Source: Coptis chinensis | Taxonomy: Eukaryota > Streptophyta > Magnoliopsida > Ranunculales > Ranunculaceae | DNA length: 64,000 nucleotides | Assembly (NCBI GenBank): GCA_015680905.1 | Contig: CM027384.1 | Coordinates: forward strand, 77,967,501 to 78,031,500 | Direction: 5' to 3' | In this document: in pieces, positions 1 to 50,138 of the stretch | Layout of the letters: each line of letters starts with the position of its first letter | Numbering within the stretch: position 1 is the first letter of the stretch | Program-made: the position numbers and the translations under genes | Notes under the pieces: model-generated | Told to the model about the DNA's origin: nothing | Databases searched by the model: none | What the model saw: only the letters and a program-made list of their open reading frames with translations

Positions 1-74
1 GGAGTTGAATTGTTTTCATAAATAAGTTATCTGTGTAGTGAGGGAATCGATTGGTATTGGTATAATCCCCAACA
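1..74 (+). repeat. 3' end of a Copia-B-type LTR cut by the window edge
   Basis: The stretch matches the last ~70 bases of the two LTRs at 29976-30637 and 37912-38527, including the shared ATCTGTGTAGTG block and the terminal CCCCAACA. It is not followed by a tRNA primer-binding site, so it is the right end of an element or solo LTR lying mostly outside the window. It sits just downstream of the rhamnogalacturonate lyase pseudogene. Confidence 0.8.
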
Positions 75-1193
75 AAACGATGATGTAAGATATTACAGCC
101 CATCACACAAGTACTGATAGAATGTAAACACTAAAATGTACTCAGATTAGTTTTTAGGTTTTATGAATTTTTTTTTTGTTTTATATTGAATTAAATAAAT
201 TTAGGAATACTCCTATTATTTGTTTCGTATTCCAAATTAAAATTGAATCATATCTGGATTACGATTAGATGTTTCATCTTTCTGTTGACCACTCAGACCT
301 CTTAGAGGTTTTTGGGGCTTCGAGCTTTAAAGTTGAAGGGGCTTCAAGCCTTATGTAATCATAGAGAATTCCACAAAGAGGATCTCCTTCCCTAGCTTGT
401 GTGAGGTATAGGATGTTGTCTCCCTTTATAAGAGCATCATCAACGCGTTTTTTAATTTGGTTGTGACACATCATCATTTTTAGCAATCAAAAATTTCTAA
501 AACGAATGGTTGAAACAACGCGGATTGGTTAAATTTTGTTAAAAAAATTTGAACGGGTCAAGTTGTCCCGTCCCACTCCAATTTTTTTTTGAATCGGGAG
601 TAGTTGTCCCGTGCACTCTATTAGCCATTTTATTTGAAAAACGAACAATGTTCCAAAGAACATTTGCCCCGCAAGAACTCACCAACATCTCAAAATCCAA
701 ACCTTCAATCACCCAATAAAAATTCGATTTTCAACCAAATTTGTTTCTGTTTTTTGCAATGGATCAACGTCGCCGAGCTGGGACGTAAGAAGACTATTAT
801 GCGTGGCTCGGGAGTTCAAATCCTCCGAAAATGAGAGTGAACTCGCATCGGAAAATGATTTCAATTTTCCACGAGATTGAGTATTCTTGATCATCCGACA
901 TTGGCTCTCGATCCGGACATGCATGTTTCAGGTTTATATAACACCGACGGAGTAAGTATGAGTTTATGAACGTTGTTCAATTGATTTTGATTTAAAATCG
1001 TGTTTAAAATTTAACGATATACTAACTGTTTGATTAAATGCCTCAATGTATAGAAAATGAGTTCGACGAGATGGAGATGCTAATGCCGAAGTATTAAAGA
1101 CTTCCTCGAGTCATCTAGTGGAAAGAGGGGAGGAAATGGAGCACGAAGAGCTCGAATTTTGGGAACACCTTTTGGTCCATTGATATCGCGGTA

Positions 1194-3055
1194 ATGTCGA
1201 GCATTGAACCGATTGTCCAATCGATATTTGCATTGGCGGAACGATGGTGGCACACCACGCACACTTTTCACCTTCCATGTGGTGAGATTGGTATCACACC
1301 ACTTGACTTTACAATGCTAACGGGTTTAAGTGTGGGCGGTGAAGAAGCCGCTTTTGTTTGATTCAAGTATCGAAGATGATTTTGAAAGGTTGAAGACTCT
1401 AACGCCGTTGTTTGATGTTGAAGGTAGACTTGTTTCAGAGAATATGGATGGCAGATACATTTTGAACCTGTACATCAGAGAAAAATTCATGCACCGATTG
1501 AGTATTGAATATTGTTTAGAACATGAAGTTGACGCCCTATATTTGGACCCAAACTCTGCGGAGGAGGATGAGTTTATCGGGATATTTTGTTATATTTTTG
1601 GGCCAAGTTGGTTTTACAACAGGAAAATCTGGGGTTCGGGCTGGTTGGTTAGCATCTTTGGTAGACCTTGATAGCTTGGAAGATTTTGATTGGGGAGGTG
1701 CTTTCATGGCACATTTATATACAGGGCTTGATTTGTTTGTACAAACAAATCAAATGGGGAAGCAATGCAACGGAATTACTTGGATACTACAGGTAATTCA
1801 ATAGGATTTAACTTTTAAGATATAAGTTTTTATTTTGTTAGTTAAATATTATATAATTTAAATTAATTAGATACACTTTCATTTGATTATTTCAGTACTG
1901 GTGGTATGAGTATTTGGCTTGCTTAAACCCTATACTGAAAGAGGATTGGGTTAAGGACTTATGGCCTCGCCCTCAGGGATGGGCTGTTTTTGGTCATGCT
2001 AGATTAAAAGATGAGGTCCATAATGATCTTCAAGCTGCTAGGATCCAAATAGAGACGAAAAGTATGAAATCTATTGTTTGGAGTCCGTGGCAAGGTTCTC
2101 AATTTGAGAATATGCATATCTGTCAGCATAGTACTCTAATGTCATTAAAAAGATTCATATTGCAAGCCCCTGATATACGTGCTTGGTTCCTTGGAGATAG
2201 GGTGACTATGCAAACCATTGGATATACATATATTCCTGCTCCCCCACCCACAGATATGCGTGCCATGGATGTTTCAGAGAATTTGATTGAACGGTATCGT
2301 TGAGAGTGCGCGGGCGTGTTTTTACGTGATTATGTTGATGTGAACTCCAGTCTTGATTATGAGACTTATTGGCGGAAAGTTTCTAGGGAAGCCTATCTCA
2401 AGGGTCCATCAGATAGAGGTGCAAACATGGATGTGTCGAACTAGTCGAGTTTTAGGCTAGACGCCGTCAATTCAGAACCCGCAAGTTCCACAAGAACATC
2501 CGAGTATATCATGGTTATACACCCCCACCTAGTGATCCATATGACCCATGGTCATACCGCGTTGTTAGTTCTCAGGGAATGGAGACCACATTTCACTTGG
2601 AGCGTCCGGTGCTTGTACCTGATCTACAACAGTTTAATGAGGTATATTTATATTTCATTATGTTAATTTAAACACACTATGTATATTTAACTTATATACA
2701 ATATTGACACAATGCAGGAAACAGATGAAAGGCAAATCAACCAGGGGCTTCGAGCTAGTTTAATTGAGCACACTCAACAGTATTATGGCTATTTAGACTA
2801 AGAACGAAAAGCAAAAGAAAACGCCGAAATTAGGATACCATTTGAGATGACAAACGAATTGGAAGCCTTGGTAATTTTATTATATGTTTTACATTTTCAT
2901 TTTTTTTTAATATATATTCAATTTTATATTTTAATTGCATTGTGTTGATGTTTCAGAGAATTGCTACTGATATCATGCAACAAAACAGTGCTCCTAATAA
3001 GAGAGGGCTTAAAACGGAGAGGGAGTTTGAAAGCGTGATAAAAAGTGCTCCATAG
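1194..3055 (+). pseudogene. Plant mobile domain (MAIN-like) gene inside the Harbinger-like element
   Basis: The translated segments match the plant mobile domain found in MAIN-like proteins and in 'serine/threonine phosphatase 7 long form homologue' proteins. The core around 1215-1340 reads ALAERWWHTTHTFHLPCG and then LTGLSVGGEEA. Later segments include LVDLDSLEDFDWGGAFMAHLY (split for length: LVDLDSLEDF, DWGGAFMAHLY) and, after an intron at 1793-1895, YWWYEYLACLNP and WPRPQGWAVFGHARL. Further exons appear at 2718-2870 and 2957-3055, the last ending at a TAG stop. At least two frame changes occur between 1350 and 1650, so it is probably dead. This domain is often carried by plant transposons. 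An upstream exon may start near 1050. Confidence 0.7.
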
Positions 3056-3571
3056 TGTTATATTGCACTATTTTGTAATAATTTAGTTATGTCATTGTTT
3101 TTGTTGTTGGTTGTTGGTTGTTGTTATTTTTTAGGGTTTGAAATGTGTTTTGAGAATCTTAACAAAGTTTAGGTATATGAATTATGTTGATTAAACAAAG
3201 GAGGCTATGTCCAATTTTTTTTATGCATTAAATTAATTATTACATTACGTTAATTTAAATTCAAGACATTACGTTAATTATTACTTAGAATCTATACATG
3301 CTTTTTATTATGTAGACAAAGAAATTCTCATGTGAACAATCAAGCCCATGTGAACGTGACTAATAAGCCCATGGGCCTCAATTTATTATTCTTCCAATCA
3401 ATTTATATCCGTTGGCATTATTCCCAAAGGGGATCAATTTATATCCAGATTTATTTCCCAACGGATATATTTCTATCCGTTGGGCCTTTGCATATATATT
3501 CAAAGTCATTTTCATTCCTCACTTCAGCTTCTCATTTTCATTCTCTAATCTTTCTCAACTTCAACTACCAA

Positions 3572-3900
3572 TATGGGCGGATCAAATATTGTCCACATTT
3601 CTACACTTGAGATTTGTCAAGTGGTGTAAGGAAGTTGGTCATTACGCTACTTCATGTCCATACATTAACATCAAATGCCCAAACCCTGAATGCAACGGCA
3701 TGATGATAGTGGTCATAACTATCAATGATGATGGAACATTGGAAGACAAACTTCTAAAGTGTGATGTTGATGATTGTCCCTCAAATATCAACATCTATCA
3801 TTCAAAAAAGGTTGACATACCTGTATGTCATTTTTGCAAGAAAGCAGTAGATTTCTGCCCTAGGTGTGGCTTGTGCGATCAATGCAATCCTTCAATGTAA
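3572..3900 (+). pseudogene. Small multi-CxxC zinc-ribbon gene inside the Harbinger-like element
   Basis: An ATG at 3572 follows a TATA-like box near 3490 and a pyrimidine-rich leader. One frame shift lies soon after the start. The main frame then encodes about 95 residues with repeated cysteine pairs: a CCHC-like CKEVGHYATSC, CPNPECNGMM (resembling a GRF-type zinc finger), CDVDDC, CHFCKK, and a C-terminal CPRCGLCDQC. The spacing suggests two or three zinc ribbons. I do not recognise a named family. It shares its element with the plant mobile domain gene and is probably cargo rather than a transposase. Confidence 0.5.
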
Positions 3901-5454
3901 TATTTGTATTTTGTTTAATTCCCTAGTGTATTGTCTTTAATTGTTTTGCATGTGTTTTTAAGTCCGTAGAATTTTATAAGATGTTTTGTATTTTATTTCA
4001 AATTAAGTTGTAATGTTTTTCATTTCTAGTTGAGTTGATTTGTTTTTAATTTCAACTTATAAACAAACACATTTTTTCAAGAAAATATACTTTCATTAAA
4101 ACAAAATACAATTTTATTTAAAGAAAAACATACACGTAAACAATAAAAATAGATTACAACATAAAATTTAAATAAATTAGTACGCTAAAACATAATCTAA
4201 TACCACCCAAATACATGTTCAAAGCCCAACGGGGTACAAAAGTTTTATTACGGTACAATTTTTGCAAATCTTCTCAAATCGTTTCAGCCCAACCCAACGT
4301 ACAAAAGCCCAACAAGATAATTTTTGTAAATCTTCTAAAATCGTTCGGGCCCAATGTTGAAAAAAGCCCAATGTTAATAAAGCCCAAAGGTACAAAAATC
4401 GAATCTGTTTGAATTTTTTAATAAAAAAACAAAAAAAAATTTGACGGTTAAAGTAGTCCCGCCCCACTCTTGGGACGGGTCAAGTTTTCCCGCACACCAT
4501 TTCTATTTTCTTAACCAATTTGACTCCAGTTTTGACAATTCTTATTATAGAAACGATAATTTGACAACGCGTTGGTGATTAAAATTGCTATAAACATTGT
4601 CAACTGTCACATTGAAAATAAAAAATAGCAACGCGTTGATGATGCTCTAAGGAATGATGAGGATATATCGATGTTGAAGAGTCGGTATAATCCATGAATC
4701 CCATGACGAACAACAGCATTATCCATGCCTAAATTTAGCACTTGAAATACAAGGTGGCCATCTAGACTATTTATGTGGACCTGTGGTTAGAATAAGTGTT
4801 AAAGAGAAGTCAAGAAGATTGGTAACAGTTTGGAAAACAAAGATGCATTAATTACCTGGAGGTTGGAGCGGTTAGCTGATGCCATGGCAATTCGAAGCTT
4901 GTAAGTTCCATTGGTTACTGAATCTAGATTGAACTTTACTTGCCATACTGATGGAACATAATTTTCAGCTCCCTTCCTGAAAATATTGTTTGAACCATTT
5001 TTGTCAGCTTGCAATAGAACTTTTAGAAGTTAAAAAAAGTTGGGATACAAAATAGAAGAATGTCTTAAAACTTTTGATAAATTATAAATTTGTGTGTGTA
5101 TTTTTCCAAACTTAACCAAAGTTTCTGCTTCTATGTAACAGACTTGTCATCCTTCCACAAAATAATGTTATTTGACTAATAAGAGTTTTAAATCACTGAC
5201 AAGGAGTCAAGGATGAACAAAACTTTTGAACAAGGAAATAGAACTAGAAACACCTATAGGCTATAGATAGGTGAACTTGGTTATGTTATATGGGATTAGA
5301 GTCCGTTTACTGTTGTATTTCTGTGACCGATGTGAAGCTCAAAGTCGAGACTCGTCTAGTATACATGTGAACTTATAATTTTTCAGACATCAGAGTAGCC
5401 ATTATTTGCTTATGCGCAATTTAAAACATTTAATGAATGGTCATGCTAGGCATG

Positions 5455-5935
5455 GCAGGTGTCAACTAGCAAAGCTGGTAAAATTTTTGGGTGATGATAC
5501 TAGAGGTCTGGGGATCAAACCCGCTAGTTTGAGGTGTGTATAAAACCGGCCGGTCGGTTTCAGGTCGGTTATGTTTATTAGTTGGTTTGATTCGGTTAAG
5601 TATATGTGAAAACTGATAGGGTCAGTTCGGTTGTCGGTTTAGTCTTAAACCCGACTTGAACCGACCGCTATATATAATATATACTAAAATATATATATTT
5701 AATTGATTTAATTTAAAAATATGTAAAACCGATTCGGTTAATATCGGGTTAAACCAGAACCCAGTTGGTTCGGTTCGGATATTGGTTCTGTTGGAAATTA
5801 GTTTGGTTTGGTTCGGTTCGGTTCGGTTAATATAACCCAGCCGATTCGGTTTGGTTCTAGAAAAGCATAAACCGATAGGGTCAGTTTAGTCCCAAACCCG
5901 ACCCGTGCACACCCCTACCGCCAACATCACTGAGT
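5455..5935 (+). mobile_element. tRNA-derived SINE copy, split by a MITE
   Basis: An A-box-like segment (CTAGCAAAGCTGGTAAA) and a B-box-like segment (GGGGATCAAACCC) about 45 bases apart resemble a tRNA-derived RNA polymerase III promoter. Related copies lie at 19958-20036 and 20819-20890 in the other orientation. The copy runs to 5528, is interrupted by the hAT-like MITE, and resumes at 5918 with CCGCCAACATCA, which matches the 3' part of the other copies. Confidence 0.6.
5529..5917. mobile_element. hAT-like MITE rich in CGGTT repeats
   Basis: The left end TTGAGGTGTGTA and the complement of the right end TAGGGGTGTGCA form imperfect inverted repeats of a type common in plant hAT MITEs. Probable 8-bp target copies are CCGCTAGT (5521-5528) and CCGCCAAC (5918-5925), only 5 of 8 matching. 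The interior is a CGGTT/GGTTCGG-rich repeat. It lies in intron 13 of the lyase pseudogene, inside a SINE. Confidence 0.6.
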
Positions 5936-6123
5936 TATTGATCTCATTTAAAACAGGTTGCGAATCAAAAAAGAAAAGAAAAGAAAATGCTTAGCACATT
6001 ATATTGGTTAAGAAGCATTTCTTCCTTGATAATGATAAATTTTGTGGCAGACTAAAATACTGTGGAAATGATCACATAAAGACTACGACAAATAGGTTGG
6101 ACTTAAAACTTTCACCTGTCTAC

Positions 6124-6791
6124 TGTTGGAATCTTCATGTGTATTTCAAATACTTGTGTGTTGTTTAGTCCCACATTGGTGAACCACCACTAGGTAGTGA
6201 GGTATATGAGGTGAACCTCTAACATAAGGGCGTGCCCTTAGGGTACAAAGGCTTTTGTGTTAGGAGGGAGGACTCACCCAAAGCCACACATCGCCTGCCC
6301 GCCCCAACCGAAGTCGAAGTCGCGGTCGCGGTCGCTGGCTGGGCAATCGAGGAGTCATTCTCATGTTTGGATTCCTACGAGTAAACCTCTATATAAACAC
6401 GCTAGCAGTGTGTGTCTATAGGGATGAACCGACATGAGAGTAAAGAGTAAGAAGTTGAAGTCGCGGTCTTCTGCCTCCACACCAAATAAAACGTAACTCG
6501 TGGATACTCCCCTACACGAAAACGGATAAGTCTTTTATTGCTTCAATCTTCTTCTTTTTTCTTCTTCCACCCGTAGAGAGAGTTATATTGTCGTTTCTAG
6601 AGGGTAGTTTGTTCTAGTGCAAAAGTCGATCGCTGTTAACCATTGAATCCTCGTGAGGAAGACGTCATTGTTGCCTTTTCGCACCATTGGAAGCGGGCTT
6701 AAATCTTTCCTTAAGGACTGACTAATCCGCGCCTTGGTTATTATTGCTATTCGTCCTTGTCTTCTATTGTTTCTTTTATCCGCATACAACA
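6124..6791 (+). repeat. 5' LTR of Copia A
   Basis: This 668-bp LTR begins TGTTGG and ends GCATACAACA. It shares most of its length with the 3' LTR, which holds roughly 80 extra bases near its middle. A family relative in reverse orientation lies at 29843-39705. Confidence 0.9.
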
Positions 6792-9700
6792 ATCTTAAGG
6801 AAAGATCAAGATGTCTACACTGTTGACACCCGCCCGATCAAAGAAACTAATTCTCGAGTCATGGAAATAACTTCGTCTATGAGAGATCTTTGCACCTCTT
6901 GAATGCTCGAAATTTACCCAATGTGTCAAAGATTGAATCCTTCACCGGGTTCACACTTCGCGATCGAGAGAAAGGGTGTTCACAGCCCTAGATGTACTCA
7001 ACTATGCAAAGTATCTCACCGATACAAAGACCTATGGAGGGTTCTAATGATTTCAAAGAAATCAAGCCGCTTTGGCTCAATGGGAATAAGGTATGTCGTC
7101 ATGCTATTTTCGAGTACCTTGTCCAATGAGATTTTTGATATTTATTGTTCAAATAAGAATGCACATGATATATGGGAGAGTTTGAACAAGAAATACATAA
7201 TAGAGGATGCTAGTAATTTAAATATGCTATCGGGAATTTTCTAAGGTTCCATATGAGAGAGGATAGAGATGTAACGCCTCAAATCCATGATTTTCATGCG
7301 GTCGATTAATGATTTGAAAACCGAGGGTATTAATTTACCCGAATCCTTTGTTTGGATGTTTGATTGAGAAACTCCCCGAAGTCTTGGAAACACTATAAAA
7401 ATAGTATGAAGCATAAGCGTAGTTAGTGATGACTCTTGAGGATGTGATCATTCACATTCACATAGAGGAAAAGAACAAGACTTCGGGATGAGGTGTTGTC
7501 TAAGGAATTTCATTCTAAAGCCAATATCGTTGAAGGTAATCCCAAAGAAATCTAACAAAACCTCTAAGAAGCGAAGTCCAACAAAAATAATAATTTCAAG
7601 GTCAAAGGCACTTCTTTTAAAAGGAGTGGTAATACCGCAATGGAAATTGTTATGTTTGTGGTAAACCCGGACATAGGGCTTTTCGCAAGCATAATAAGAA
7701 AGACACCGATGATCCTCCCAATGCTAATCTAGTTGAGGGAGATGATATTGTTCTTCGCCGGCGTGTCCACAGTGTTCATAGCCACCGGGAAGAGGAACTG
7801 GGTACTAGATTCGGTGCCACCCGCCACATCCTGTGGTGATGTTGAAAGCCTTCTCGGACTACATACTAGTGAAAGATGAAAAGGTCTATATGGGTGACTC
7901 TAGGTCCGTTCTGTTGAAAGGAACATGCAAGGTTCTTCCGGGTTAACCGGGGAAAACCCTTTCACTTAGTAATGTTCTTCATGTTCCCGAGATTCGCCGG
8001 GACCGATTTCGTGGTCCCTACGGGAAAAGTCAAGGCCAAGGTGACTTTTGAGAGTGACAAGTTTGTTCCGACAAAGAATGAGGGTTTTTTGTTGGTAAAG
8101 GTTATTGTAATAACAGTGGTCTTTTCATGTTGAATGTACTTTGACAACATTATTATTAATAAGAATGAATCGCTTCGCTTATTTGCTTGACTCTTTGATA
8201 TATGGCATGGTAGACTAGGACATGTGAATGTTCAAGATATGAAAAGGATGAAAGCATGTGGTTTATTGTCTAATATTTCTGATTTTCTAATGATAAATGT
8301 GAGATATGTGGCCGAGACTAAAGCCACGAAGAACCCCCCGCAGAACGTGTGTCTAGAGATAAACCGGATTACTAACTCTTATTCATAACGGTTTGGGTGA
8401 ATTCGGAAGTACCATGTCAGAGGGGGAAGTTTTATTATATTACATTCATAGATGACTTCTCTAGGTACACCATGGTATATTTACTTAGACACAAGCATGA
8501 GGGCGGTGAGATGTTTTCTCAAGTACAAAGTGGAAGTTGAAAACCGGCTTAATCTGAAGATTAAGAGACTTTGGCCCCGATAGGGGTGGAGAATATGAGT
8601 CTAAACCCTTCCGGGACTTTTGTGACAAGAGTGGCATTATTCATGAGACTACTCCACCATACTCTCCCGAGTCTAATGGAGTAGCCGAACGGAAAAAACA
8701 TAACACTAAAAGAGATGATGAATGCTATGCTTGTAAGTTCCGGAGCTTCCCGAACTTGTGGGGAAGCAATCCTATCCGCTTGCCATATACTGAGAATAGG
8801 ATACCCAACAAGAAAACAAGGGAATAAGACACCATATGAAGTTATGGAAAGGTCATGTACCTAACCCGACATACTTAAAAATGTGGGGGGTCTTTGCTAA
8901 GGTTCTTGTGAACGAACCTAAAAAGAGAAAAATGGGACCTAGACTGTTGATTGTATGTTCATTGGTTATGCTCATAATAGTCTTTGATATAGATTTTTAG
9001 TAGTAAAATCGATAATAACCTTGTCGATGCTAACACTATTATAGAGAGTAAAAATGCTTGATTTCTTTGAGAATTTGTTTCCTCCGAAAATTGGCATTGA
9101 GAGGTTGGTAGCTCCTAGTGAACAACAATCAATGAGATCTTGAAATTCTCGAACAAGAAATTCGGAAGAGTAAAAGAGAGACGTAAAAATCCACCAATTT
9201 TGGTGATGACTTTTACACTTTTCTTCTTGATGATGATCCTGTGGACGATAATGAGGCAATCGGTTCTCGAAAGTGCACCTTTCGGAAGGATGCTATACAC
9301 TCGAGCTAGATTCGATTATAGCTAATCACACATGGGAGATAGTGGATCTACCTCCCGGGCTTAAACCTATCGTTACAAGTGGATCTTCAAAAAGAAATTG
9401 AAACTAGATGGTTCCATTGAGAAATACAAGGCTAGACTTGTAGTCAAGGGGTTCTCCGGAAAAAAGGCATTGACTATTTTGATACTTATGCTCCGTAACT
9501 AGGATTTCTTCTATAAGAGTTCTAATGGCTCTAGCTGCTATTCATAATTTATTTATTCATCAAATGGATGTAAAAACTGCATTTTGAATGGTGATCTTGA
9601 TGAAAGAAATATATATGATGCGACTCGGTGGTACGATAGTAATCGGGGAATGAGCATAAAGTATGCAAGTTAGTTAAGTCTTTATATGGGTTGAAACAAA

Positions 9701-11412
9701 GCCAAAACAATGGCATGAAAAGTTTGACGGTGTCATGATGTCTAATGGATATCACATAAATGATGCCGATAAATGTATTTACTTCAAATCTTTTGATGTG
9801 AATTCATATGTGATTATCCGCCTATATGTGGATGACATGTTAATCATGAGTCCTAGCCTTGATGTTATGAGAAACACCAAGATGTTTTATCCTCCCAATT
9901 TGAAATGAAGGATTTGGGAGAAGTCGATGTGATTCTTGGAATCAAAATCATCGTAAAACGATGATGGCTATACGCTTTCACAAGAGCATTATGTTGAGAA
10001 GTTTTTTGAAGAAGTTTAACTTTTATGATAGTAAGCCCTGTGTCGACACCTTATGAGGCAAATAGTGAACTTAGGAAAAATGCTCAACATGGTGTACTTC
10101 GATCTAGATATGCCCAAATTATTGGTAGTCTCATGTACTTGATGAATTGCACTAGACTGACATTGCTTATACGGTTAGCGGTGCTAGCGGATACACTCAT
10201 TGTCCTAGTCGGGGAACATTGGAGTGCGCTTAGAGAGATTAGCCAAGTACTTGAGAGGAACAATGAATTACGGCGATAAGGTTTAGACAAACTCCACGTG
10301 ATAGGGGTTATTGTGATGCAACCGGATATCCGATTCTCATGATATCAAGTCCACTAGTGGTTATATTTTCACACTAGGTGGAGGTGCGCCGCTTGGAAAT
10401 CTTCTAAGCAGACCTTGATAGCTCGCTCAACCATGGAGTTCGAGCTTATTGCTTTAGATAAAGCAAGTCGCCGAAGTCGAGTGGCTTAGAAACCTCTTGG
10501 CAGATCTTCCTATTGGTACAAAACCGCCTCAACCGCATGCATATGCATTGGATCGGCCGCAATAGCAAAGGCAAAGAGCAAATTGTATAATGGGAAAAGG
10601 GGCATATTAAATGCGAGCCTACAGTCTATAAAATTCTTTGGAATCCGGAGTTGTGGCTCTAGATTATGTGAGGTCGAGTTAAATTTGGCCGATCCTCCGA
10701 CAAAGCCACTTAACAGAGACAAGTGGTGGTCGATAATCGAGGGGGATGGGACTTTTGCCTTAGATAGAGGGCTTATTAATCGACGGCAACCCCACCTATG
10801 TGATTAGAGATCCCATGAAGTAGGTTCAAAGGGAAAAACAAGTCACCTCGTCGCTCGCGGTATGATATTGTCTTTATTTGAGACGTCCCACCCTATGACT
10901 AGATAGCATTATTGTATACTTTGTATAACTTGAATAGCAATGAGAAAAATGATGAGTTATTTTACTCTTAATGGAATCCATAGTCCATTATTTTTATGAG
11001 ATAGTGTATTTTAACTGCTATGTACACTTGATGGATATCCACCTACGTGAATGTAGAACTGGGTCGGTTCTTATGAGTATTCAGGCAAATACTCTAGAGC
11101 ATTCACATAACACAGGAAGCGCACGTAAGGGCCAAAAAGCGCGTGCAACACCGCAGAACAGGCATATAATGAAGGAGCAATGTGGGTGCATGTCCTCTAT
11201 TTTACTACAAGGGAATGTTGGTTCAAAGATTTTTTAATCCACCACTTTCACGTATTATAAGACATGTTACCCTATGACTGGTTCAAGCCCGAAAAGCACC
11301 AAGATCTTATGCATTGTTTTTCGATTTCTCTCGGCATTTCGTTAACCCATTTCTTTTGTAATATCCTATTCCAAAATAGTGGGGACTATAAGTATTTTGA
11401 AATAGTGGGGAT

Positions 11413-12189
11413 TGTTGGAATCTTCATGTGTATTTCAAATACTTGTGTGTGTTGTTTAGTCCCACATTGGTGAACCACCACTAGGTAGTGAGGTATATGA
11501 GGTGAACCTCTAACATAAGGGCGTGCCCTTAGGGTACAAAGGCTTTTGTGTTAGGAGGGAAGACTCACCCAAAAGCCACACGCCGCCATGAACCGTGTCG
11601 TGGGCTAACCGGTTGTCTAGTGGGTAGTGGATTACCAATTGCCTAAACTTGTTTTTCTTTTTTGAACAAGTTTTGGCTGGAGTCGCAGTGCGAGTTGGAC
11701 TCTGTCTCATAACTGTTTTGGGAGACCGAATTGAGGAGTCATTCTCATGTTTGGATTCCTACAGAAACCTCTATATAAAACACGATTAGTGTGTGTCTAT
11801 AGGGATGAACCGATTCTGAGAGAGTAAGAGAGAACGGTTGAAGTCGTCGCTGCTGCCTCCACACCAAATAAAATGTAACTCGTGGATACTCCCTTCTCTC
11901 CACCCTACACGAAATAGATAAGTCTTTTATTGCTTCAATCTTCTTCTCTTCTCTTCTTCCTGTCACCACCAGAGAGAGTTATATTGCCTCTAGAGGGTAG
12001 TCCGTTCTAGTGCAAAGTCGATCATTGTTAACCATTGAATCCTCGTGGAGGAAGACGTCATTGTTGCCTTTCGCACCATTGAAGGGGCTTTAAATCTTTC
12101 CTTAAGGACGACAAAATAATCCGCCTTGGTTATTAACCTGCTATTCTCGTCCTTGTCTTCTATTGTTTTCTTTTTATCTGCATACAACA
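11413..12189 (+). repeat. 3' LTR of Copia A
   Basis: This 777-bp LTR is preceded by the purine tract and followed by the TCTAC target duplication. It is longer than its 5' partner, mainly through an extra segment around 11585-11700. Confidence 0.9.
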
Positions 12190-13298
12190 TCTACTTGTTC
12201 GGAAAACCAATCCTTCTTTGAGTCATTAGCTCCTATTGTGAAAACCTGATCAGAGGTAGGGTGTATATCTGTGTATCTGTCCCATAGACCATACTGTCTG
12301 AACCTGCATTGCTGAACTTTTTGATGGGATGAAATTTGCTTTCTTGTGGGGTAAACGTTTTGAAGGTCAATATGATAGGAAACATTGCTTACTTCTCAGG
12401 ACTATTAATGAACAATTTGTTTATATACATTGGGTTCACATCAGGGACATAAAAACCAGTAGCTGTACGATCTGGAAAACCAATCTCCCATACAGTTGGG
12501 CCATCTCTAGTTGGAAGATAGATCACATTTCCCAGTTCTGTTTCTGATCCTGTAAAATAGAATACTCATTATTACTGCAGGCCCGTGAACATCAAAGAAA
12601 CTGATCTTTCTAGAGACAACAGGGGCAATAGAGTATATATAGACGAAATGAAACTCAAGAAATGTACCTGCAGAAATGTTAACAAGCTTCTTATCCAGGT
12701 AGTTTCCCACAAAACCAGGAACCCATCCATGAAGACCATAAATACCTGGGATAACATTGTTGATGCTGAAAGCTCCAGTTGAGTCTGTTTGAACCCAGAA
12801 CTGATAACCCTGTACACTCAGGAATAGATGAAGAAGAGGCTCAATTAGTATCTGATATATTGATCCGTGCCTACAGATTTTTAGGAGGTCATTGATGGGT
12901 TTTATGTCATGGTTGGTATACAAGACAAGTTATGAAAATCATTCAGTGTGTTAATTATATGTAGCCAGTTCTATTCTTACCTTGCTTTCTACTTCCCAAC
13001 CTCCTTCAGTCCTTGCTACTGATAAACCAACATAAGCCGATTTAGCAGGAATAAGAGCTCCAGAAACAAATCTGTGATTCACAGTAATTTGAAATATCAG
13101 TGTACAGCTCAAGTAGATGTGTTTTGGAAGTTTTTAATGCACTCATAAAATATTACTTATCCTGAACGAGCAATCTTCCTGAAGCTGATCCACGTTCTTT
13201 TGCCGCAAGAAAGTAGGGTGAGGATACAAAACTATACGGTCATGTTGACACTTCTAGCAGCCTCTAGGATGAGCCATAGACCATGAAAACAAACCCAG

Positions 13299-13331
13299 GA
13301 GCAAAGTCGGCATGTAACTGTTTAATTTCAT
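13299..13331. repeat. 33-bp block shared with the 5' flank of the COG4 pseudogene
   Basis: In lyase intron 8, the block beginning GAGCAAAGTCGGCATGTAAC recurs at 50096-50128 in the same orientation with one mismatch. A few more bases match upstream. No larger shared element was identified. Confidence 0.7.
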
Positions 13332-13435
13332 GGTAATTGCATATAACAACACTTCAAGTGGAACAATTTGTAGAGCTGTCGGTATATACCTGTTTTTTTG
13401 CATCTATCCATAAATTGTGTGCATCAGATGTATCT

Positions 13436-13475
13436 GGCTCACGAACGCAGGGCCTAAGTCCTGCGTTCGTGAGCC
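13436..13475. repeat. Perfect 16-bp inverted repeat at the retroposon's 5' junction
   Basis: GGCTCACGAACGCAGG (13436-13451, lyase exon) and its exact complement (13460-13475, first bases of the insertion) are separated by 8 bases. The inserted copy looks like flank DNA copied in reverse when the retroposon's 5' end was joined. Confidence 0.85.
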
Positions 13476-14378
13476 TGTTCTCTCTCTTTCTAATGGCTGC
13501 CGCTCTCGATCTCTCTCAATAGTGAGAGTAGAGAAACCCTCTCCTACGGGGAAAAGCAGTATCTCTCCTTATCAAATCTCCTTCTCTTCTCACCTTCCTT
13601 GGTAGCTTCTCTCTCTTCCCACCCCAGCTGCAATGAAGAAGAAGAAAAAAAAAAAATCACTCCTTTAAGTGTTCTTGCAACACATAGGATGATCGACATC
13701 ACAGGTCATACGCTTTATTGGATCTGGCTATGGGGGTTTTGGTTTTCTCCTTTAGAGAAGTCTTCTTTCCCAATTTTGCAAATTGTTTCTTCTTTGAAGA
13801 CCTTAAATAAGTTAGATCTAGGTTTCTGGTTATATTTTTCGGTGTTTATTGCTTTGCCGGTTCTTTGGATCTAGTAGCTCAATATCAGTGGCAAAGCCAT
13901 GGGTTCAGCCCTCTCTGTCTGTTTCTCTGGTTTGGCTCAATATTTTACTTGGCTGAGACCAAGGCTCTCTCCCATTATCTATTCCCTCTCTGGATTGCTG
14001 GTTTGGGTAGTAATTTGGTCAGGCCACCGCCCGCCCTTCGAGGGCTCTTGGTGGGGCATTCTTTTATGGGATTGCTAATCTGCCGCTTGTGTCGTGGAGT
14101 GTAATACTACGCGATTTGAAGGCTCTTGAGTCTTTGCATTGGGAGATCCAACATGGTTTTTGGTTGAGTACGGTTGTAGCTGATTTGGAGAAAGTGGTGG
14201 TGGGGTTTCCAATGTGGAGTTGCTGCCGGTGTTGGGTGTTCGGTTCAGGTGGAGTTCGGTTCAAGATTTTATGGATGTTCAGTACTTGTTGTGGTTCTCT
14301 TGTATTGTTTTCATCTATTTTTTCTTGTGTTGTTGTATGTAATCGATCTTTTGATTAATATAATCAGTTTGTTCATCG

Positions 14379-14415
<37 letters not shown>
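13458..14415 (+). mobile_element. LINE-type poly(A) retroposon, about 0.96 kb
   Basis: The insertion ends in ~30 A residues (14379-14408) after TTTGTTCATCG, a 3' end resembling plant L1 elements. It is flanked by the 9-bp duplication AGGGCCTAA (13449-13457 and 14416-14424). No reverse transcriptase is seen, so it is a 5'-truncated or internally deleted LINE derivative or another retroposed transcript. It starts with a CT-rich leader after an 18-base inverted piece. It splits exon 8 of the lyase gene. Confidence 0.75.
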
Positions 14416-15798
14416 AGGGCCTAATACCTTCCTCCATGCCTCTCCTTCACTAAAATGTGCAATTATATCATTGCCAATATAGTGACATCCATGAAACATC
14501 TGCAGCAGACAACCAAATGATCAATATATCTGTCATGCGGCCATGTGGGTCTTAAATATAAATATGGCTGCCCAATTATATTTGTTTATTTTAGATGCTC
14601 TCTTGTATGTATTGCAAAATGATTTTGTCACAACATGTTATATTCTTAAATGTAACTGAATCACTATATTTTGCCTTCACAAATGCAATCCTGATAGAGG
14701 ACTAAAATGAAGAGAGGGAGAGTTACAGTGAGGCATGTTGGACCAGTATGGCATGTAAGATTTTGCTTCGTAGGTCCACCATTTCTGTACTCATTAGTAG
14801 GGATTACAACCCAAAATCCGATGGTCGGACTGCCAGAGCTTATCCACCCATGTAATCCGCCGTCCTTGTTGTCCATTGAGTACTGGTATTTGTCATCAAC
14901 CTTAATACATCAACAGACACTATAGTCAGACACTCAGACACCTTCAACTCCGTTGCTCTTTGGTTTCAGTTACACTACAAAGAAAGATTGTTCCACAAAC
15001 CTCCCCTTTAAGATCAGGATTTATTGGATTCGTAAGCAAGACAGCTTCAGGTACAATAAGCTCTTGACATCTATTAGGAAGTCTATCCTCTGGCATTGGC
15101 ATTATTCTTTGCTTTTCATCTGTAATCGCCATGTAATGAAACCTATACCATTCAATGATAAACAACTTAAACATGCATGGCTAAACTACGGTTATAGTGC
15201 GTCTGGTTTAATACTAGTTTATGTCATGCATTTACGCTGGTGGTTATTGCGTTATGTTTATTTAGCACATCTCCTATTGTGGTATAAGTATAACTATCAA
15301 GATCAACCACCATGTACATTGTAGTTAGATGTCAGATTATTCATAAGCAACATCTTCAGAGGACCTAAAGTTAGGTTTATTACTTGTCTCTTCTTAATAT
15401 AAACACCATTCTTGTCTGCACTAGATCAAAAGCAGGCGAGGCAGTGGAGCGCTCATATATGGTGGCATAACAATAGAACCCTGAAACCCCGCTCCTCATA
15501 ATGATTCTGACAATTAAAAAAAAAAAAGGACATTAAAGCCGATAATTATATTACATCATTCTAGTCTAGGAAACATGTCTCCAAAAATAAAAGGAAAAAT
15601 GAAACAACCTCTTGTCTATGCTTATTGGTAAGTTGCTTCTGAATGAAAGTTCTATACAGTCTTTACTTGAATTAACGACACTATACTCCGTCGCTCTAAG
15701 TCTGGAAAGATAATGTTGTATTGTCAGAACCCAGAGCTTGGTAAGTTTTTGAAGTAAGTTCTCTACCTTGATACCAACCAGCCGAAATATATATAATA

Positions 15799-17375
15799 GG
15801 GTTATTTAGGGATTGGTCCTACTTATTTAGGGGTATTTAGAGATAGGTCCTAAAATTATCGATTATTAGGCTTTAGTCCTACTTCTATCGATTGACCTTA
15901 AGTCAACTCAGTTGACCGTGGTCAACCCATTTTATAATAATATAATTTTCATATTTTATCAAAATGGCCAAACTACCCTTCAGCGTGCTTCGTATGTGAC
16001 TTTAGAGAGTCGTTGAAAATGGCCAACAATCAACACGTGTCAAAAATCAAGCATAATTAAACTCGATAAACCAATTAAGTTCAAAAAAGTTAGAGGGATG
16101 ATTGCGGCAAGCCTCTATGAAATCGCCGAGAAGAAGAGAAAGATGGATGGTGAGAAAGGCGGAGGAAATGTCCGATTTTGAAGGTGAGCCCTTTGTGGTG
16201 TTCGCAAATCAAACACCAAATCTCATCTCAAGCGTCGTTGCTCGGACTTGAGAGAAGCCCCGATTTGAAGGTGAGTGAGTCTTTGTCCTCCCTTCTACAT
16301 CATTTGCTCTAAGTCCTAATGACTCTGAACAGCGCAGCGAAGAAACTATTTTTCCGTTTCTCTATTATTCGTGATAGTGTTTATTGGTCTTTGGCTTTCG
16401 ATCCTAGCAAGTGTATCAACAACGCTCAAACTCTTTTGGCTCCTATTTGCATAATTCCTTACCCAAATCGCAAGCAAGTGTAGTGGTTATGTCGCTCTTG
16501 GGTCCAAGATCTTTATGATGGGTGGTATTATCGGTGAACCTTCAAAAAAGAGAAACTTGAAGGTTCTACGGATATATTCTCCTTTGATACCAAAACCAAA
16601 AATCAATTTTCAATGGCAAAATTAAAATGAAAAAGGAGTCCGCTCACTTGCTTGCCAAGAGGTCTAATCCAAATAGTTTAATTAGAAAATCTATGTGTTT
16701 GGAAACAAATTTTTGAACCAACACCGGTTTGAAGTTTTCGACCCATATATAATTAAACTTATCCGCCCTCTTCCTAACCCTCCACATCGGGTCACTTGTA
16801 AATGTTTTGAATAATTTCTTAGAACTCTTGTTGCAAATGGGGATAAGATTCTTTTGGTTTTGAATAATATTGTATCCTATTTCGATGTGAAAAATGAGTC
16901 GATTGACTCAAATCCCAATTCCTATTGGCAAACCATATCTTTGGTCCGATCAACCAATTAAGTTAAAAAAATTAGAATTTGATACAACATAGAATTAGTC
17001 TTTTAAGAGTTAACCCCTCCTGTATTTGAGTTAATTAGGTTTTGGTCCTACTTTTATGTCATTAAAGAGTTTGAATTTAAGTTCATGAAATACCTTTGGT
17101 GAATTTAAGTTGATGAAATATCTTTGGTCGATTTTGACACGTGCCCATTGTTTGGCCATTTTCAACGACTCTAAAGTCACATCACAAACTTTGAAGGGTA
17201 GTTTGGCCATTTTGATAAAAATTGAAAAATATATTATTATAAAATGAGTTGACCACAGTCAACTAAGTTGACTTAAGGTCAATCGATAGAAGTAGGACTA
17301 AAGCCTAATAATCGATAATTTTAAGACCTATTCCTAAATACCCCTAAATAAGTAGGACCAATCCCTAAATAACCC
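15799..17375. mobile_element. Mutator-like element (Pack-MULE) with long TIRs
   Basis: Terminal inverted repeats of about 255 bp (15799-~16055 and ~17120-17375) begin GGGTTATTTAGGGATTGG. A perfect 9-bp duplication TATATAATA flanks the element (15790-15798 and 17376-17384). Both features are diagnostic of Mutator-like elements. No transposase is present. The interior carries F-box/kelch-like coding fragments. It lies in intron 3 of the lyase gene. Confidence 0.93.
16290..16960 (+). pseudogene. Captured F-box/kelch-type gene fragment
   Basis: Plus-strand reading gives SVYWSLAFDPSKC, then GYVALGSKIFMMGGIIGEPS, which fits a kelch strand (GSKI..MGG), then STDIFSFDTKTK and FEVFDPYIIKLIRPLPNPP. These are typical of plant F-box/kelch-repeat proteins. 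The pieces lie in more than one frame and contain stops, so this is a captured, non-functional fragment inside the Mutator-like element. The exact parent gene is unknown. Confidence 0.55.
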
Positions 17376-18736
17376 TATATAATAAATAGAAAAATAATGC
17401 ACTTTCGATCTGTTAAGCACTCACAATTGGTATCTATCCCCGCCTCCTGGTAAGTTCCAGTTGATGTCCCAATACCTGCACAGTTTCTAAGATGTTACTT
17501 CATAGTTTATTGCAGTTGCTCTGACTTTTTGTTACTTAAGAGAAACTTGTGTGTTTATATACCCTCTACTAGATGATTTTGATTGTACATCCAAAAGGTT
17601 GTCCATTCCTCCATAACTAATTCCTGTCAAAGATCCATCAGGTCTCGATATTGTAAGCTTTGCTAGGCCATTGTCCAATGTGACCTGCACAAATTTGAAA
17701 TAAAACACACACTTCTATTAGACTGTTTATTACTATATTATATTTCTGTGCAAGAGAGGTAGAGTAAACTTGCATAGGAGGGTTGGGTAGTTAAGAACTT
17801 AAGATCACACTCTTCATAGCCATAAGAGAAAAACCCTTAATGCTGAAAAAACCTTAATGTTTTTGTTTAGAGAAGTAAACAGAGTTTCGATACTTGCTCA
17901 ATGGTTGATGATGTTTAAATCGTTGCTTACAATGATTTAAATGAACTATGAAGCAAATATACGATGGTCTTTTTTCTAGGTATGTCTCTATGCATGATTC
18001 ATTCTCTTGTTAATATCAACTTGGTCATTTACTATGTATATACGTACTAAGATCAAACATAAGGTACGTTAAACTTTGATTAAAGACAAAGATGTTTAAA
18101 GATCACTAGTTGTTTTGTGACTTTGTCAGCATATACGGTATGCAAACAATGTTGTTCGTGGAATTTATAGCTGTCATATGCGACTAGACATAGTTCAGTT
18201 AACGACAGTAATGAAAAATTAATGAAAAAGTATATACCGAGATAACGTCAGCATACACACAGTAATGAAAAATTAGGCAATTTGTTCAACAACTTTAAAT
18301 CAAAGAGATAAATTAAAAAATGTATTAATAACAAAAGAAAAGGGTTAATTAGTTGGAAAAGACAAAAAAGAATCAAATCATAAGGATATTTGTGGCCTAA
18401 GTGATTTTTTTAGGCTCCAGCTATCCCAAGGATATCCTTATAGGAATGAGGGTTTGCATAACCAAATTATGCAGATATGATAATATTAATAACATCATAA
18501 TCATCACTATTTAGATTATTAGAAATCCTATAGATCGAGTTATTACTTTAGACAATTGAATCGAGCTTTAATTTTCCCGAGTGCAAACACGGAAATATGT
18601 AGACTCACGCTTCTTGTTGTTGCGTATGGGGGGAATGGCAAGCCACTTAGTTGTTGTAGCACCATGAGATCACGACCATCATACATTCAATTGCTCAAAT
18701 AAACAGAAGGTTTCCACTTAAAAAGGTAATACATTA

Positions 18737-19162
18737 GAGCAAGTCCAATGGAGAGCTGCTAAAAATGTCACTTGTTGCCACATGCTTTTTAGCTTGCAAG
18801 TTGTAAATTTGGCTTCCCAAAAAATAAAAAACCAATCCAATCGAAGGTTTCGTTTTGAAGTGCTAAATAATATGGATGGTATAGCTGCCGCCATTCGCTT
18901 ATTATTTTTGAAATTTTTGGATGGACGATAAAATGATATGGGTCCGTCGTCGTCGAGTCGAAAACACACCGGACGGTAAATTATGTCGTCCGTCTTTCGA
19001 ACTTATTATAGCAGCTGCTAGCGAAGGTTTTAATTTTGGCTGGGTTTTTTTACTCCTTTCAAATTTAAAACATTTTTAACAGTCTCATTAGAATGACATT
19101 TTTGTAGTTGGAGTGTTATATTTGTCTTTAGCCGTCTATATAGCCCTCCATTAGACTAGCTC
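18737..19162. mobile_element. Tourist/Harbinger-type MITE
   Basis: Inverted ends GAGCAAGTCCAATGGAG and CTCCATTAGACTAGCTC are flanked by TTA on both sides (18734-18736, 19163-19165). A 3-bp TTA duplication and GAGC...GCTC ends fit a Harbinger MITE. At 426 bp it lies just upstream of the lyase first exon. Confidence 0.8.
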
Positions 19163-19165
19163 TTA

Positions 19166-19957
19166 GCCCCCACAAAATTTATGATGTGAAGTTGTGAACG
19201 ATAGACGAGAATCCCACAAGTCAAAAACTCCAAAGATTCTATTTTTTTTTTTTCCAGAAAACCGAAATTTTCAATGACGACGAAATTGATGTCGATCTAT
19301 GCCGCCATGGTGTGAACGAACAGATGTGTTGCACTTTGAGGTTACTTACGTGCTCGTCATTATTCTATTTACTTGTATAACAAACTAAGATATAGAACTG
19401 TAGAAGTCGACTTGGGCCTAAACCGAAGCCAATAATTTGTTATCGTACCAAAACTTTAATACTTGTTTCTATGTGGCCTGCCTCTTAAAATCTACATCAG
19501 GAAACACTTTTCCGTGTACGTTGGCAAATTCGTAATGAGTCTGGATTCACTGAGGGTATCCGCAAACCCAGATTTAAAGGGACGCACAATCCACCATAAT
19601 GAGTGATTCACAAATTCTCTCCCTTCTGAGTTCAAATTCTTACGTATAAGGGTAAAGATGAAATTGAAAAACATAAAATTTGAGGAAGAGGGAAAATCGT
19701 CTTCTTCCTTGTTGCTGGTTGCATCATTATCCCCCCCTCTAAAACCTTTTCTGGTTCAACATTAATTGACTAATCAGAAATATAAAGACAAAAATTAAGG
19801 TATCTAACAAAACATCCTCTGCATATCAACTCTATTACGTCATCGCAAGTATGAACAAATGGAAATCAACACCCATCCAGATTCAGTAAATAAAATTGGG
19901 TAGGAAGCTGAAAACATAACTTTAATCAACACTTTGAGTTAGCCTCTTATTTATGTT
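19166..19957. other. Intergenic, nothing recognised
   Basis: This AT-rich spacer lies between the lyase 5' end and the first cysteine protease. Short open frames such as 19492-19674 (minus) have no recognisable motifs. Confidence 0.6.
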
Positions 19958-20036
19958 TGATGCTGGCAGGATTCAAGCTCTAGACTTTTGGTATTATCGC
20001 CCAAAAGTTTTATTGACTTTACTAGTCGGCACTATA
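19958..20036 (-). mobile_element. tRNA-derived SINE-like copy
   Basis: The minus strand carries GACTAGTAAAGTC, then TTTTGGGCGATAATACC, then a degenerate B box (GAGCTTGAATCCTGCC). This is the same order as the copies at 5455 and 20819. Confidence 0.5.
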
Positions 20037-20818
20037 TGTACTTTTTTTCTTTTAATTTTGATTAAATCCAATTAAAAGATAATTTAGAGACAAAGGAAGT
20101 AAAATGTTCATGTCAATGACATGAGAAGGTTGTTTAGATTTGATGATTACTTTGGAGCACATTTTCATATTATCAATTAACATCTATTAACAAACCCACA
20201 CCCTTGTTTGCTTTTGAAATCAACTGAGTGAGATATGTGATCTCTAAAAATAGGAGAGTGGGCAATCAATTGCATGTATATCCATTATTATGTATGGAGT
20301 AAAGTGTTGTTATAACTTGCTAGATTAAAAGTGGTGCAACTCTATCGTGAAAGAAGCAAGTAAACAGGGAAGAAGAGGTACTTGTCTTTATTTGTATTCC
20401 CAATTATACCCTCACACGTATCTTCATCATTTGAAGTTAGAAGAGAATAATTTTCTCAAGATTTGAACCCTCAATCTTATGGTGATTTGTGCGTCCCCTT
20501 TCCCCTTTAAATCTAGTGTGCGGTTACCCACTCTGAATCCAGAAGAATGAAAACGTTAATTCGTACAAATATATGTAGTGTAATTGTACATCATGACAAA
20601 GTTATTTTAAGCATATATCAATTTCAAAATTTACAAATATATTTGTAAAGTCTTGTTATTTCTTACAATACTACAAATATTTACAACTTAAAAAATAAAA
20701 AATAAAAATAAATGTATAGAAAGCTATCTATTATTATAAAAATTAGTAAACATGTTTTTAAGCGAGGCTTTTACTTTTTTTTTTTGGCAAACTTGTTTTT
20801 AAATGAGATCAGTAACTT

Positions 20819-20890
20819 GTTGATGCGGCGGGTTCGAACCCTAGACATATGATATCATCACCCAAATATTTTAACTGTCTATTCGTTTAA
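20819..20890 (-). mobile_element. tRNA-derived SINE-like copy
   Basis: The minus strand reads ATATTTGGGTGATGATATC and then a good B box, GGGTTCGAACCCGCC, followed by GCATCAAC. It is the third copy of the family and the A-box side is worn. Confidence 0.55.
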
Positions 20891-21040
20891 AAATTTAGTA
20901 CGTAACCAGTCAATACTAAAACCTTTTACGTATTTGGTCTACATCACTCTACCTCCAATCCATGACGTACACTAGCAAGTAGTAACATAGATGAATCTGT
21001 TGTGCGGCTAGAGCAATAGAATCTTAAGCATGCAAATGCG

Positions 21041-21050
21041 TCTATATAAG
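21041..21050 (+). promoter_or_regulatory. TATA box of cysteine protease 1
   Basis: TCTATATAAG lies 80-90 bases upstream of the ATG at 21130. The paralogues at 25305 and 40847 have an equivalent box at a similar distance. Confidence 0.7.
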
Positions 21051-21129
21051 CTCCAACAAGGCAACATACTTCATCGAAAACAAAACATTCACTAAGAAAA
21101 CTTGTTTTAGTTGAATTGGTAGCAATAGT

Positions 21130-22472
21130 ATGGCTGCAACATGGCAATCAATCAACTTTGTTAGTGTAGGCCTAATTATTTTGAGCCTTTGGGTATGTCA
21201 AGTGATTTGTAGGACTCTACCTGATACTTCCATGGTAGAGAGACATGAGCAGTGGATGGCTCTACATGGTCGTATATACACTGAAGCAACTGAGAAGGAT
21301 ATGCGTTTTAAAAAATTCCAAGAGAACGTTGCGTATATTGAGTCTGTTAATAATGCTGGAAATCGACCCTACAAGCTGAGTGTTAACAAATTCGCAGACC
21401 TAACAAATGAAGAGTTTAAGGCTGTTCGAAACGGGTACAAAAGAACTTCTTCACTAGAAAAATCATCGGACGGGTTGTTGTCCTTCAGACACGCAAATGT
21501 CAGTGTGGTACCATCTAGTATGGACTGGAGGAAGAAAGGTGCTGTAACCCCTGTCAAGGACCAAGGCGAGTGTGGTAAGTGTTTATTTACGTAGTAAATA
21601 ACCTTTACCAATAGGTAATTAATAATTAATTCATAGGTAATTAATAATTAATTCATTTATCACTCTAGCTTGATGCCGCTTGAAAAAATAAGAAGAAAAG
21701 AAATCATACTTCAGTCATCAATCTGTTGAATTGGTAGCATCAACAATATAATTTACACGTACTGCACCAGCTACACCTATAGATAGTACGTAGGGCCGCA
21801 TGATATCAAATTGTTGAAATTCATTTCTAATACTTCAGCAACATGTTATCGAAAAACACAGGAAGTTGTTGGGCATTTTCAGCAGTTGCAGCCACAGAAG
21901 GAATTAACCAACTCAAAAGAGGTAAGTTGATCTCATTGTCAGTACAAGAACTAGTGGACTGTGATGTTAAAGGCGAGGATCATGGTTGCCAGGGTGGTTT
22001 CATGGGTGATGCATTTCAATTCATCCAACAAAATAAAGGTCTTGCAGCAGAAGCTACCTATCCATATAAGGGTGTTCATAGCACTTGTAATAAAGCAGCC
22101 TCTCATGCAGCCAAGAAAGCAGCCTCTCATGCAGCTCAAATCAAAGGTTATGAAAATGTTCCAGTTAACAGCGAGAAAGCACTTTTGAAAGCTGTAGCAA
22201 GCCAACCAGTATCTGTAGCTATTGATGCAGGTGGCTTTGATTTCCAGTTTTACTCGAGCGGTGTTTTTACTGGTGAGTGTGGAACAGACCTAAACCATGC
22301 TGTAACTGCTGTTGGTTATGGAGTGAGTGTCGATGGAACGAAGTATTGGCTTGTGAAGAACTCATGGGGCAGTGGATGGGGTGAGAATGGATACATAAGA
22401 ATGCAGAGGGATGTCAGTGCCATGGAAGGTCTATGTGGTATCGCCATGAATGCTTCCTACCCTACTCTGTGA
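21130..22472 (+). CDS. SAG39: SAG39-like papain-family cysteine protease 1
   Basis: Exons 21130-21574 and 21862-22472 encode 351 residues (GT-AG intron of 287 bp; the codon for Gly149 spans it). A signal peptide (residues ~1-28, [10 protein letters not shown] core) is followed by an I29 inhibitor propeptide with an ERFNIN-type helix and then the peptidase C1A domain starting near [10 protein letters not shown]. Catalytic residues are Cys151 (SCWAFS), His294 ([11 protein letters not shown]) and Asn315 (KNSWGSGWG). The GCQGG motif is present. There is no KDEL tail or granulin domain, which fits SAG12/SAG39-type vacuolar or secreted proteases. An 8-residue tandem duplication lies near residue 227. 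The first of three tandem paralogues, it appears intact. Confidence 0.92.
22092..22139 (+). repeat. 24-bp in-frame tandem duplication in protease 1
   Basis: Two adjacent 24-base units (22092-22115 and 22116-22139) encode KAASHAAK and KAASHAAQ. The paralogues have a single EASHAAE at this place, so the second unit is an added surface-loop insertion. Confidence 0.85.
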
Positions 22473-50128: not shown

Positions 50129-50138
50129 CTTAAAAAAA

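Follow-up and report, generated by a model that had tools for sequence, protein, structure and literature searches.

A gene of the rhamnogalacturonate lyase family PL4 on chromosome C8 of Coptis chinensis is interrupted by four transposable elements, and a nearly identical copy of it on chromosome C9 is empty at every one of these sites. The gene lies on the minus strand of a stretch of 64,000 nucleotides (hereafter, the window), C8:77967501-78031500, where C8, C9 and similar labels are chromosomes of the Coptis chinensis assembly. As judged from its sequence, the C8 gene is no longer able to encode the enzyme. The C9 gene is probably the functional copy, because its sites are empty and its frame is continuous over 14 exons, and it would be the expressed one. 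Taken as a whole, we consider it quite likely that the locus was duplicated between C8 and C9, that insertions then killed the C8 gene, and that the C9 gene was retained.

The lyase gene on C8 and its copy on C9

PL4 loci were located by searching the plant's own genome with the Pfam models PF06045, PF14686 and PF14683, and matching sets of exon matches came from the window and from C9:74.719-74.724 Mb. Stretches of the C9 copy and of other paralogues were aligned to the window (labels such as L021, on C9, and L024, on C8 to the left of the window, refer to these stretches). The C9 paralogue (C9:74719419-74724084) differs from the C8 gene at 14 of 1876 aligned exon sites, so that the exons are 99.3% identical. 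It aligns as host pieces at window positions 74-432, 4648-6131, 12190-13437, 14406-15798, and 17376-18386 and onward, and it is empty at all 4 of the 4 in-gene C8 insertions and at a further element with long terminal repeats (LTRs) 3' of the gene. An LTR element or a retroposon is not removed without leaving a trace, so the C9 state is the state before insertion.

The C8 gene can be traced from about 17684 down to its stop codon at 274, with 14 homology-supported exons (E2-E15) in order, set by paralogue homology and by GT-AG sites in C9. From the 5' end these are exons 2 (17563-17684), 3 (17425-17475), 4 (15609-15701), 5 (15384-15506), 6 (15001-15142), 7 (14727-14900), 8 (5' piece, 14406-14499; 3' piece, 13390-13437), 9 (13157-13263), 10 (12981-13071), 11 (12668-12809), 12 (12393-12549), 13 (5' piece, 12195-12303; 3' piece, 6116-6123, read from the junction against C9), 14 (4856-4976) and 15 (5' part, 4651-4780; 3' part with the stop codon, 274-431). 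The exons of the window match the three Pfam models piece by piece. A first-pass annotation of this DNA had proposed a single PL4 gene across the locus, and all 14 exons align to one C9 copy; an origin of the pieces from different paralogues was accordingly rejected.

Element edges were read from the junctions against the empty C9 sites. Exon 15 is split by a PIF/Harbinger-like element (432-4647) with the terminal inverted repeat (TIR) GAGCATCATCAACGCG, present in inverted orientation at its other end, and the target-site duplication (TSD) TAA (429-431 and 4648-4650). Exon 13 is split by a plus-strand Copia LTR retrotransposon (6124-12189) bounded by TG..CA, with the TSD TCTAC (6119-6123 and 12190-12194). 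Its 3' LTR starts at 11413 and its integrase precedes RVT_2; the domain matches are, in order, gag_pre-integrs (E 1.6e-6, just under the cutoff), rve (3e-4, below the cutoff) and RVT_2 (6.3e-8, over the cutoff), and the fourth translated stretch has no domain match. Exon 8 is split by a plus-strand poly(A) retroposon (~13438-14405), at which 14 target bases are lost and no TSD was seen at the junctions read against C9. The start of the retroposon (window 13436-13475) holds a perfect 16-base inverted repeat, a fold-back, the outermost G of which possibly belongs to the host. The replacement of 14 bp of target instead of its duplication, together with the fold-back, suggests an unusual joining of the 5' end. 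The fourth element, a Mutator-like element (MULE; 15799-17375) with TIRs of ~245 bp and the TSD TATATAATA (15790-15798 and 17376-17384), lies in intron 3. Thus, three of the four in-gene insertions are in exons, as had been annotated. The annotation had also noted that removal of the Harbinger-like and Copia elements restores the exon frame, and the naturally empty C9 copy bears this out, with a continuous frame across both sites.

The annotation had counted five disrupting transposons. The fifth, a hAT-like miniature inverted-repeat transposable element (MITE) inside an element resembling a short interspersed nuclear element (SINE) at ~5455-5935, does not belong among them: it lies in intron 13, is common to the open C9 copy, and was rejected as a disrupting insertion. 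Being present in both copies, it is older than the C8/C9 split. Its TIR, of TAGGGGTGTGCA type, which we take to be hAT-type, is present in C9, and the 8-mers on its two sides have 6 of 8 positions in common (by eye).

A further insertion is the LTR-bounded element just outside the gene, found on C8 only. Its right end occupies window positions 1 to 74 (the whole element runs from L024:909 to window 74, 9166 bp) and lies 200 bp 3' of the PL4 stop codon. In total, five C8 insertions (this element and the four in-gene ones) are in or beside PL4 host DNA totalling ~6.15 kb. Elsewhere in the block, as aligned up to 29084, no C8-only gap of at least 100 bp was found; the figure calculated post hoc for this clustering is 0.009.

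In C9, exons E2-E15 form 643 codons without a stop, and the intervening introns are GT-AG. The product matches PF06045 (E 2.5e-69, residues 1-186), PF14686 (E 7.5e-21, residues 341-414) and PF14683 (E 2.3e-42, residues 427-612) in that order, which is the three-domain architecture of plant PL4 enzymes, and the gene resembles, exon by exon, paralogues on C4, C5, C9 and C101. The C8 copy differs from these by its insertional splitting, and both the C8 and the C9 copies differ in that the N-terminal exon is unrecognised. The PF06045 match of the C9 product runs from model position 25 to the model end, leaving the first 24 positions, and with them the conserved first exon, unmatched. A phmmer search with the single sequence returned no PDB relative of the PL4 product at E 0.001.

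The annotation had given the gene 15 exons reaching to 18665; E2-E15 are secure, whereas the candidate exon 1 (18609-18665, minus strand, 19 codons ending at GT) has no support from paralogues. Its addition lifts the PF06045 score from 237.6 to 240.9 bits (+3.3) and moves the start of the match from model position 25 to 21. Its frame is open in C8, but the C9 version contains one extra C and a CT instead of the GT donor; the candidate is also unlike the first exons of the paralogues among the matches listed. Either the candidate is wrong, or C9 may be damaged at that place. The C4 and C5 paralogues have a first exon with a GVxLQxQD-like end (by eye, among the matches listed), and nothing like it could be recognised near exon 2 of either the C8 or the C9 copy. 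A motif scan of the DNA 5' of exon 2 for a first exon like that of the paralogues gave 1 match in C9 and 0 in C8, which was unconvincing and was set aside. Also upstream of exon 2 is a shortened and rearranged, non-coding remnant (18387-18451, 65 bp) of an old element of ~366 bp, longer in C9 (L021:8783-9148), with a related copy at window 58364-58543.

Host lesions, constraint and divergence

Compared with C9, the C8 gene carries one nonsense codon (TGG to TGA at base 13240, exon 9), three in-frame length changes (-27 in exon 4, at 15631; +3 in exon 5; -24, one tandem unit, in exon 15) and the 14-base loss at the retroposon, which is more than the two host lesions beyond the insertions that had been annotated. 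The tryptophan at the nonsense site is kept in the four paralogues aligned there. The exon indels are in frame in 3 of 3 cases vs 3 of 16 gaps in non-coding sequence. A 1-base gap placed by the aligner where Copia meets exon 13, and the 14-base loss at the retroposon, are excluded from this count. None of the splice dinucleotides of the 14 exons is changed in C8.

Codon comparison of C8 and C9 gave 9 synonymous changes (410.3 sites) against 4 nonsynonymous changes and 1 nonsense change (1443.7 sites). The proportion of differing sites is 0.022 for synonymous sites (pS) and, without the nonsense codon, 0.0028 for nonsynonymous sites (pN), with pN/pS ~0.13 (Fisher P 0.0008, nonsense counted as nonsynonymous). 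Under a model in which C8 was neutral since the split and C9 was fully constrained, a count of nonsynonymous changes as low as five in 14 has a probability of 0.03, which rises to 0.14 once transitions are roughly weighted. On account of the pN/pS ratio and this neutrality test, the loss of the PL4 gene was probably late on the C8 branch and recent relative to the duplication, with modest support; C8 may have stayed constrained until the first hit. The annotation had called the loss probably recent, and relative to the duplication this agrees with the pN/pS ratio and the empty C9 sites.

In the non-coding part of the gene region outside the old transposable element, 29 of 3115 sites differ between C8 and C9 (0.93%). 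At 1e-8 per site per year, the LTR rate given in text passages of the assembly paper (PMC8172641), the uncorrected age of the split is ~0.5 million years from the non-coding gene region or the exons, and 1.1 million years from synonymous sites. On the same scale, the LTR pair of the Copia element (24/644, 3.7%) would date to 1.9 million years and that of the left LTR element (34/679, 5.0%) to 2.5 million years. Between C8 and C9, the hAT/SINE common to both shows differences at 35-36 of its 473 sites, with transitions making up 25 of 35 changes, and repeats at this locus are diverging ~8 times faster than introns. We infer that deamination of methylated C and base-call errors are the likely causes of this fast divergence.

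Small indels of 1-3 bp are about as many as mismatches in most element comparisons (6124-12189, 432-4647 and 15799-17375 with their copies), unlike in genic DNA. Two Harbinger-like copies (L044 vs L045) differ by 44 mismatches and 64 gaps, 61 of them of at most 3 bp, and another element pair (L040 vs L042) by 20 mismatches and 8 gaps; the PL4 block 12190-13437 has 12 mismatches in 1248 sites and no gap. Since small gaps in element bodies are about as frequent as mismatches, frameshifts inside the elements are not to be read as decay. Base-call errors in methylated repeats are likely and would inflate the LTR ages; the published assembly, according to text passages of its paper (PMC8172641), is based on Nanopore R9.4 reads with Illumina polishing.

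The duplicated segment and alternative explanations

The left edge of the duplicated block on C8 is at L024:773-781, where an exon fragment resembling what we take to be COG4 joins the PL4 3' flank without N. On C9 the edge is at L021:3088, with low-copy C9 flank beyond; 2 kb of this flank (L021:1001-3000) have matches to themselves and to relatives on C9 and C1, and none on C8. To the right the block extends beyond window 29084, at least to ~31.8 kb. It may reach 42 kb, although the collinear place on C9, at 94%, is a poorer match to this extension than two others on C9 (97% and 96%).

Next to the lyase, the block contains a plus-strand cysteine protease gene of two exons (21130-22472) with an open frame of 351 codons on C8. 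Its C9 copy is broken at codon 37 by a Copia element of the family that also struck PL4, with the TSD GAGAG (L023:1838 to L034:2159) and ~14.6 kb of other sequence inside it. The two chromosomes are therefore damaged reciprocally, at the lyase on C8 and at the protease on C9. Several diverged copies of the protease region are present on C9 and C5.

COG4-like fragments (window 50134-51210 and L024:469-781) recur on C5, C6, C7, C8 and C9, mostly at 87-99%, which gives the impression of a cluster with many segmental duplications. Immediately to the left of the window, L024:1-760 equals C8:77939031-77939791 at 100% identity, 18.47 kb apart, as either a very recent tandem duplication or an unmerged assembly overlap. 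An Rfam scan of the window gave 0 matches. The genome also contains coclaurine N-methyltransferase-like genes arranged in tandem, and base 581,926 of C3, the position at which the assembly paper (PMC8172641) has its CYP719 cluster on chromosome 3 begin, is the first base of a P450 reading frame.

In the explanation that we prefer, a segment with the PL4 gene and neighbouring cysteine protease genes would have been duplicated between C8 and C9, and both PL4 copies would have remained under protein constraint for some time. The C8 copy would then have received, in an order that we infer and do not observe, Copia in exon 13, the PIF/Harbinger-like element in exon 15, the poly(A) retroposon in exon 8 and the MULE in intron 3, with a further LTR-bounded element just 3' of the gene and one codon turned into a stop. 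The protease would have gone in the opposite direction, being broken on C9 by the same Copia family and left open on C8. Several points weigh against this explanation. Both LTR pairs are more diverged than the flanking introns, which a single clock disallows; the test for continued constraint on C8 following the split gives modest support (P 0.03; transition-weighted, 0.14); and no paralogue-like first exon is recognised in either copy, so that C9 itself may be without a working 5' end.

The last point would be expected if both copies had been dead at the 5' end before the duplication and the insertions had struck a pseudogene. The first exon seen in C4 and C5 is indeed not recognisable here and the candidate exon adds only 3.3 bits; the stop-free C9 frame of 643 codons, the introns of which are GT-AG, the pN/pS of ~0.13 and the three in-frame exon indels speak against an early death, which we regard as rather doubtful. 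The LTR ages, for their part, could be accommodated by a duplication older than it appears, with gene conversion between C8 and C9 keeping the genic parts alike after the insertions. Both LTR pairs exceed the intron divergence, and the shared hAT/SINE is much more diverged than the remaining non-coding gene region (35-36/473 vs 29/3115), which is in favour of conversion. However, the two copies of the protease block (8/1419 differences) are as similar to each other as those of PL4 block 12190-13437, the spacer 19100-21120 differs by 2.7%, single 500-site windows differ by up to 6.4%, and a faster pace in methylated repeats together with base-call errors would explain the pattern too, making conversion an unlikely account.

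It is more improbable still that the C9 stretch is the other haplotype of the C8 locus, misassembled, with the insertions as heterozygous alleles. An intron divergence of 0.93% would be compatible with this, and the 760 bases repeated at 100% on C8 point to a possible assembly problem. On the other hand, the left flank on C9 has no C8 match, the COG4-like fragment is joined to the PL4 3' flank on C8 without N, and the protease region has several diverged copies on C9 and C5. The synonymous divergence of 2.2% is also well above the mean heterozygosity of 0.47% given in text passages of the assembly paper (PMC8172641). Overall, duplication followed by insertional death of the C8 gene best accommodates the evidence.

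Transposon families and the significance of the locus

The copy numbers of the element families are lower bounds, as the searches scored part of the candidates (retroposon, 40/131; MULE, 40/795; Harbinger-like, 35/661). In the Harbinger-like family, bases 1-4216 are covered by at least 16 further copies (13 at 91-96% and three at 85-87%), and bases 1-4211 by one more. Identical 3-bp TSDs of the form TNA (TAA, TTA, TGA or TCA) flank 12 of 13 copies including that of the window, the exception having TGA and TCA; one of the 12 was read by eye, its TIR being mutated. At least nine further copies of the MULE cover bases 3-1577 or more of its 1577 bases, at 88-92%, and identical 9-bp TSDs were found in all four copies examined, the window's included. 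One MULE copy (L041) has a Kelch-like similarity in one frame at a sub-threshold level (E 0.025-0.07), and the label "Pack-MULE", which the annotation had used for the element in the window, is unproven. Of the 893 retroposon bases, at least 11 further copies cover 38-891 or more and another copy covers 15-826, all at 89-96%; more diverged copies follow.

The Harbinger-like element carries a plant mobile domain (PMD, PF10536), with E 1.8e-14 in a frame of the L044 copy (over the cutoff) and 7.4e-6 in the copy of the window (below the cutoff). In the seven translated stretches that were scanned (two from the window, four from L044 and one from L045), the PMD was accompanied by a sub-threshold zinc knuckle, and no transposase was found. 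The PMD gene showed no sign of constraint in the two pairs compared (3 synonymous and 9 nonsynonymous changes in L044 vs L043, 3 and 6 in L044 vs L045), a comparison with little power.

Text passages of Ikeda et al. 2017 (PMC5418596) report the PMD in Ty3/gypsy and MULE elements, and the text of that paper contains the word Harbinger 0 times. The family described here resembles these transposons in its PMD cargo and differs in that the carrier has a TIR and TSD of PIF/Harbinger type. Pack-PIF elements in general have already been described, and the passages seen of that paper (PMC8903248) show a likeness between Pack-TYPE elements, Pack-PIF and Pack-MULE, and those studied here, as TIR elements with internal gene-like sequence and a 3-bp TNA or 9-bp TSD; the PMD, by comparison, sits in a multi-copy family of 4.2 kb, for which the absence of a transposase is unproven. 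PMC7156037 has no occurrence of Harbinger, and no text passage placing the PMD in a Harbinger element was found, a weak negative given the poor coverage of subscription journals. Tentatively, the element in exon 15 could be a PIF/Harbinger-like carrier of the PMD, so far without a transposase, that forms a third kind of PMD-bearing transposon and possibly a counter-silencing device, at a locus where one Copia family caused reciprocal damage on C8 and C9.

The inactivation of duplicates by transposons is ordinary non-functionalisation after segmental duplication, in which one copy stays open and the other gains insertions and a stop. This case stands apart from the ordinary one in that a single gene holds four insertions of four classes, that their empty sites can be read within one genome, and that the protease next to it is damaged reciprocally. 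No literature was found on transposon-disrupted rhamnogalacturonan lyase pseudogenes in plants, and among titles on Coptis chinensis transposable elements or pseudogenes none concerned the PL4 locus, both being weak negatives, with subscription journals poorly covered.

A duplicate gene killed by transposons is thus biologically ordinary, and here it is unusually well documented, in that the same genome provides, for each in-gene insertion, an empty paralogous site for comparison, and adjacent duplicated genes show reciprocal damage. The locus also gives a warning on LTR dating, since the ages obtained exceed that of the duplication that must precede the insertions, owing to rapid divergence of repeats, to base-call errors or to both. 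The PMD-carrying Harbinger-like family is its most unusual component and provides a lead on how transposons may escape from silencing.

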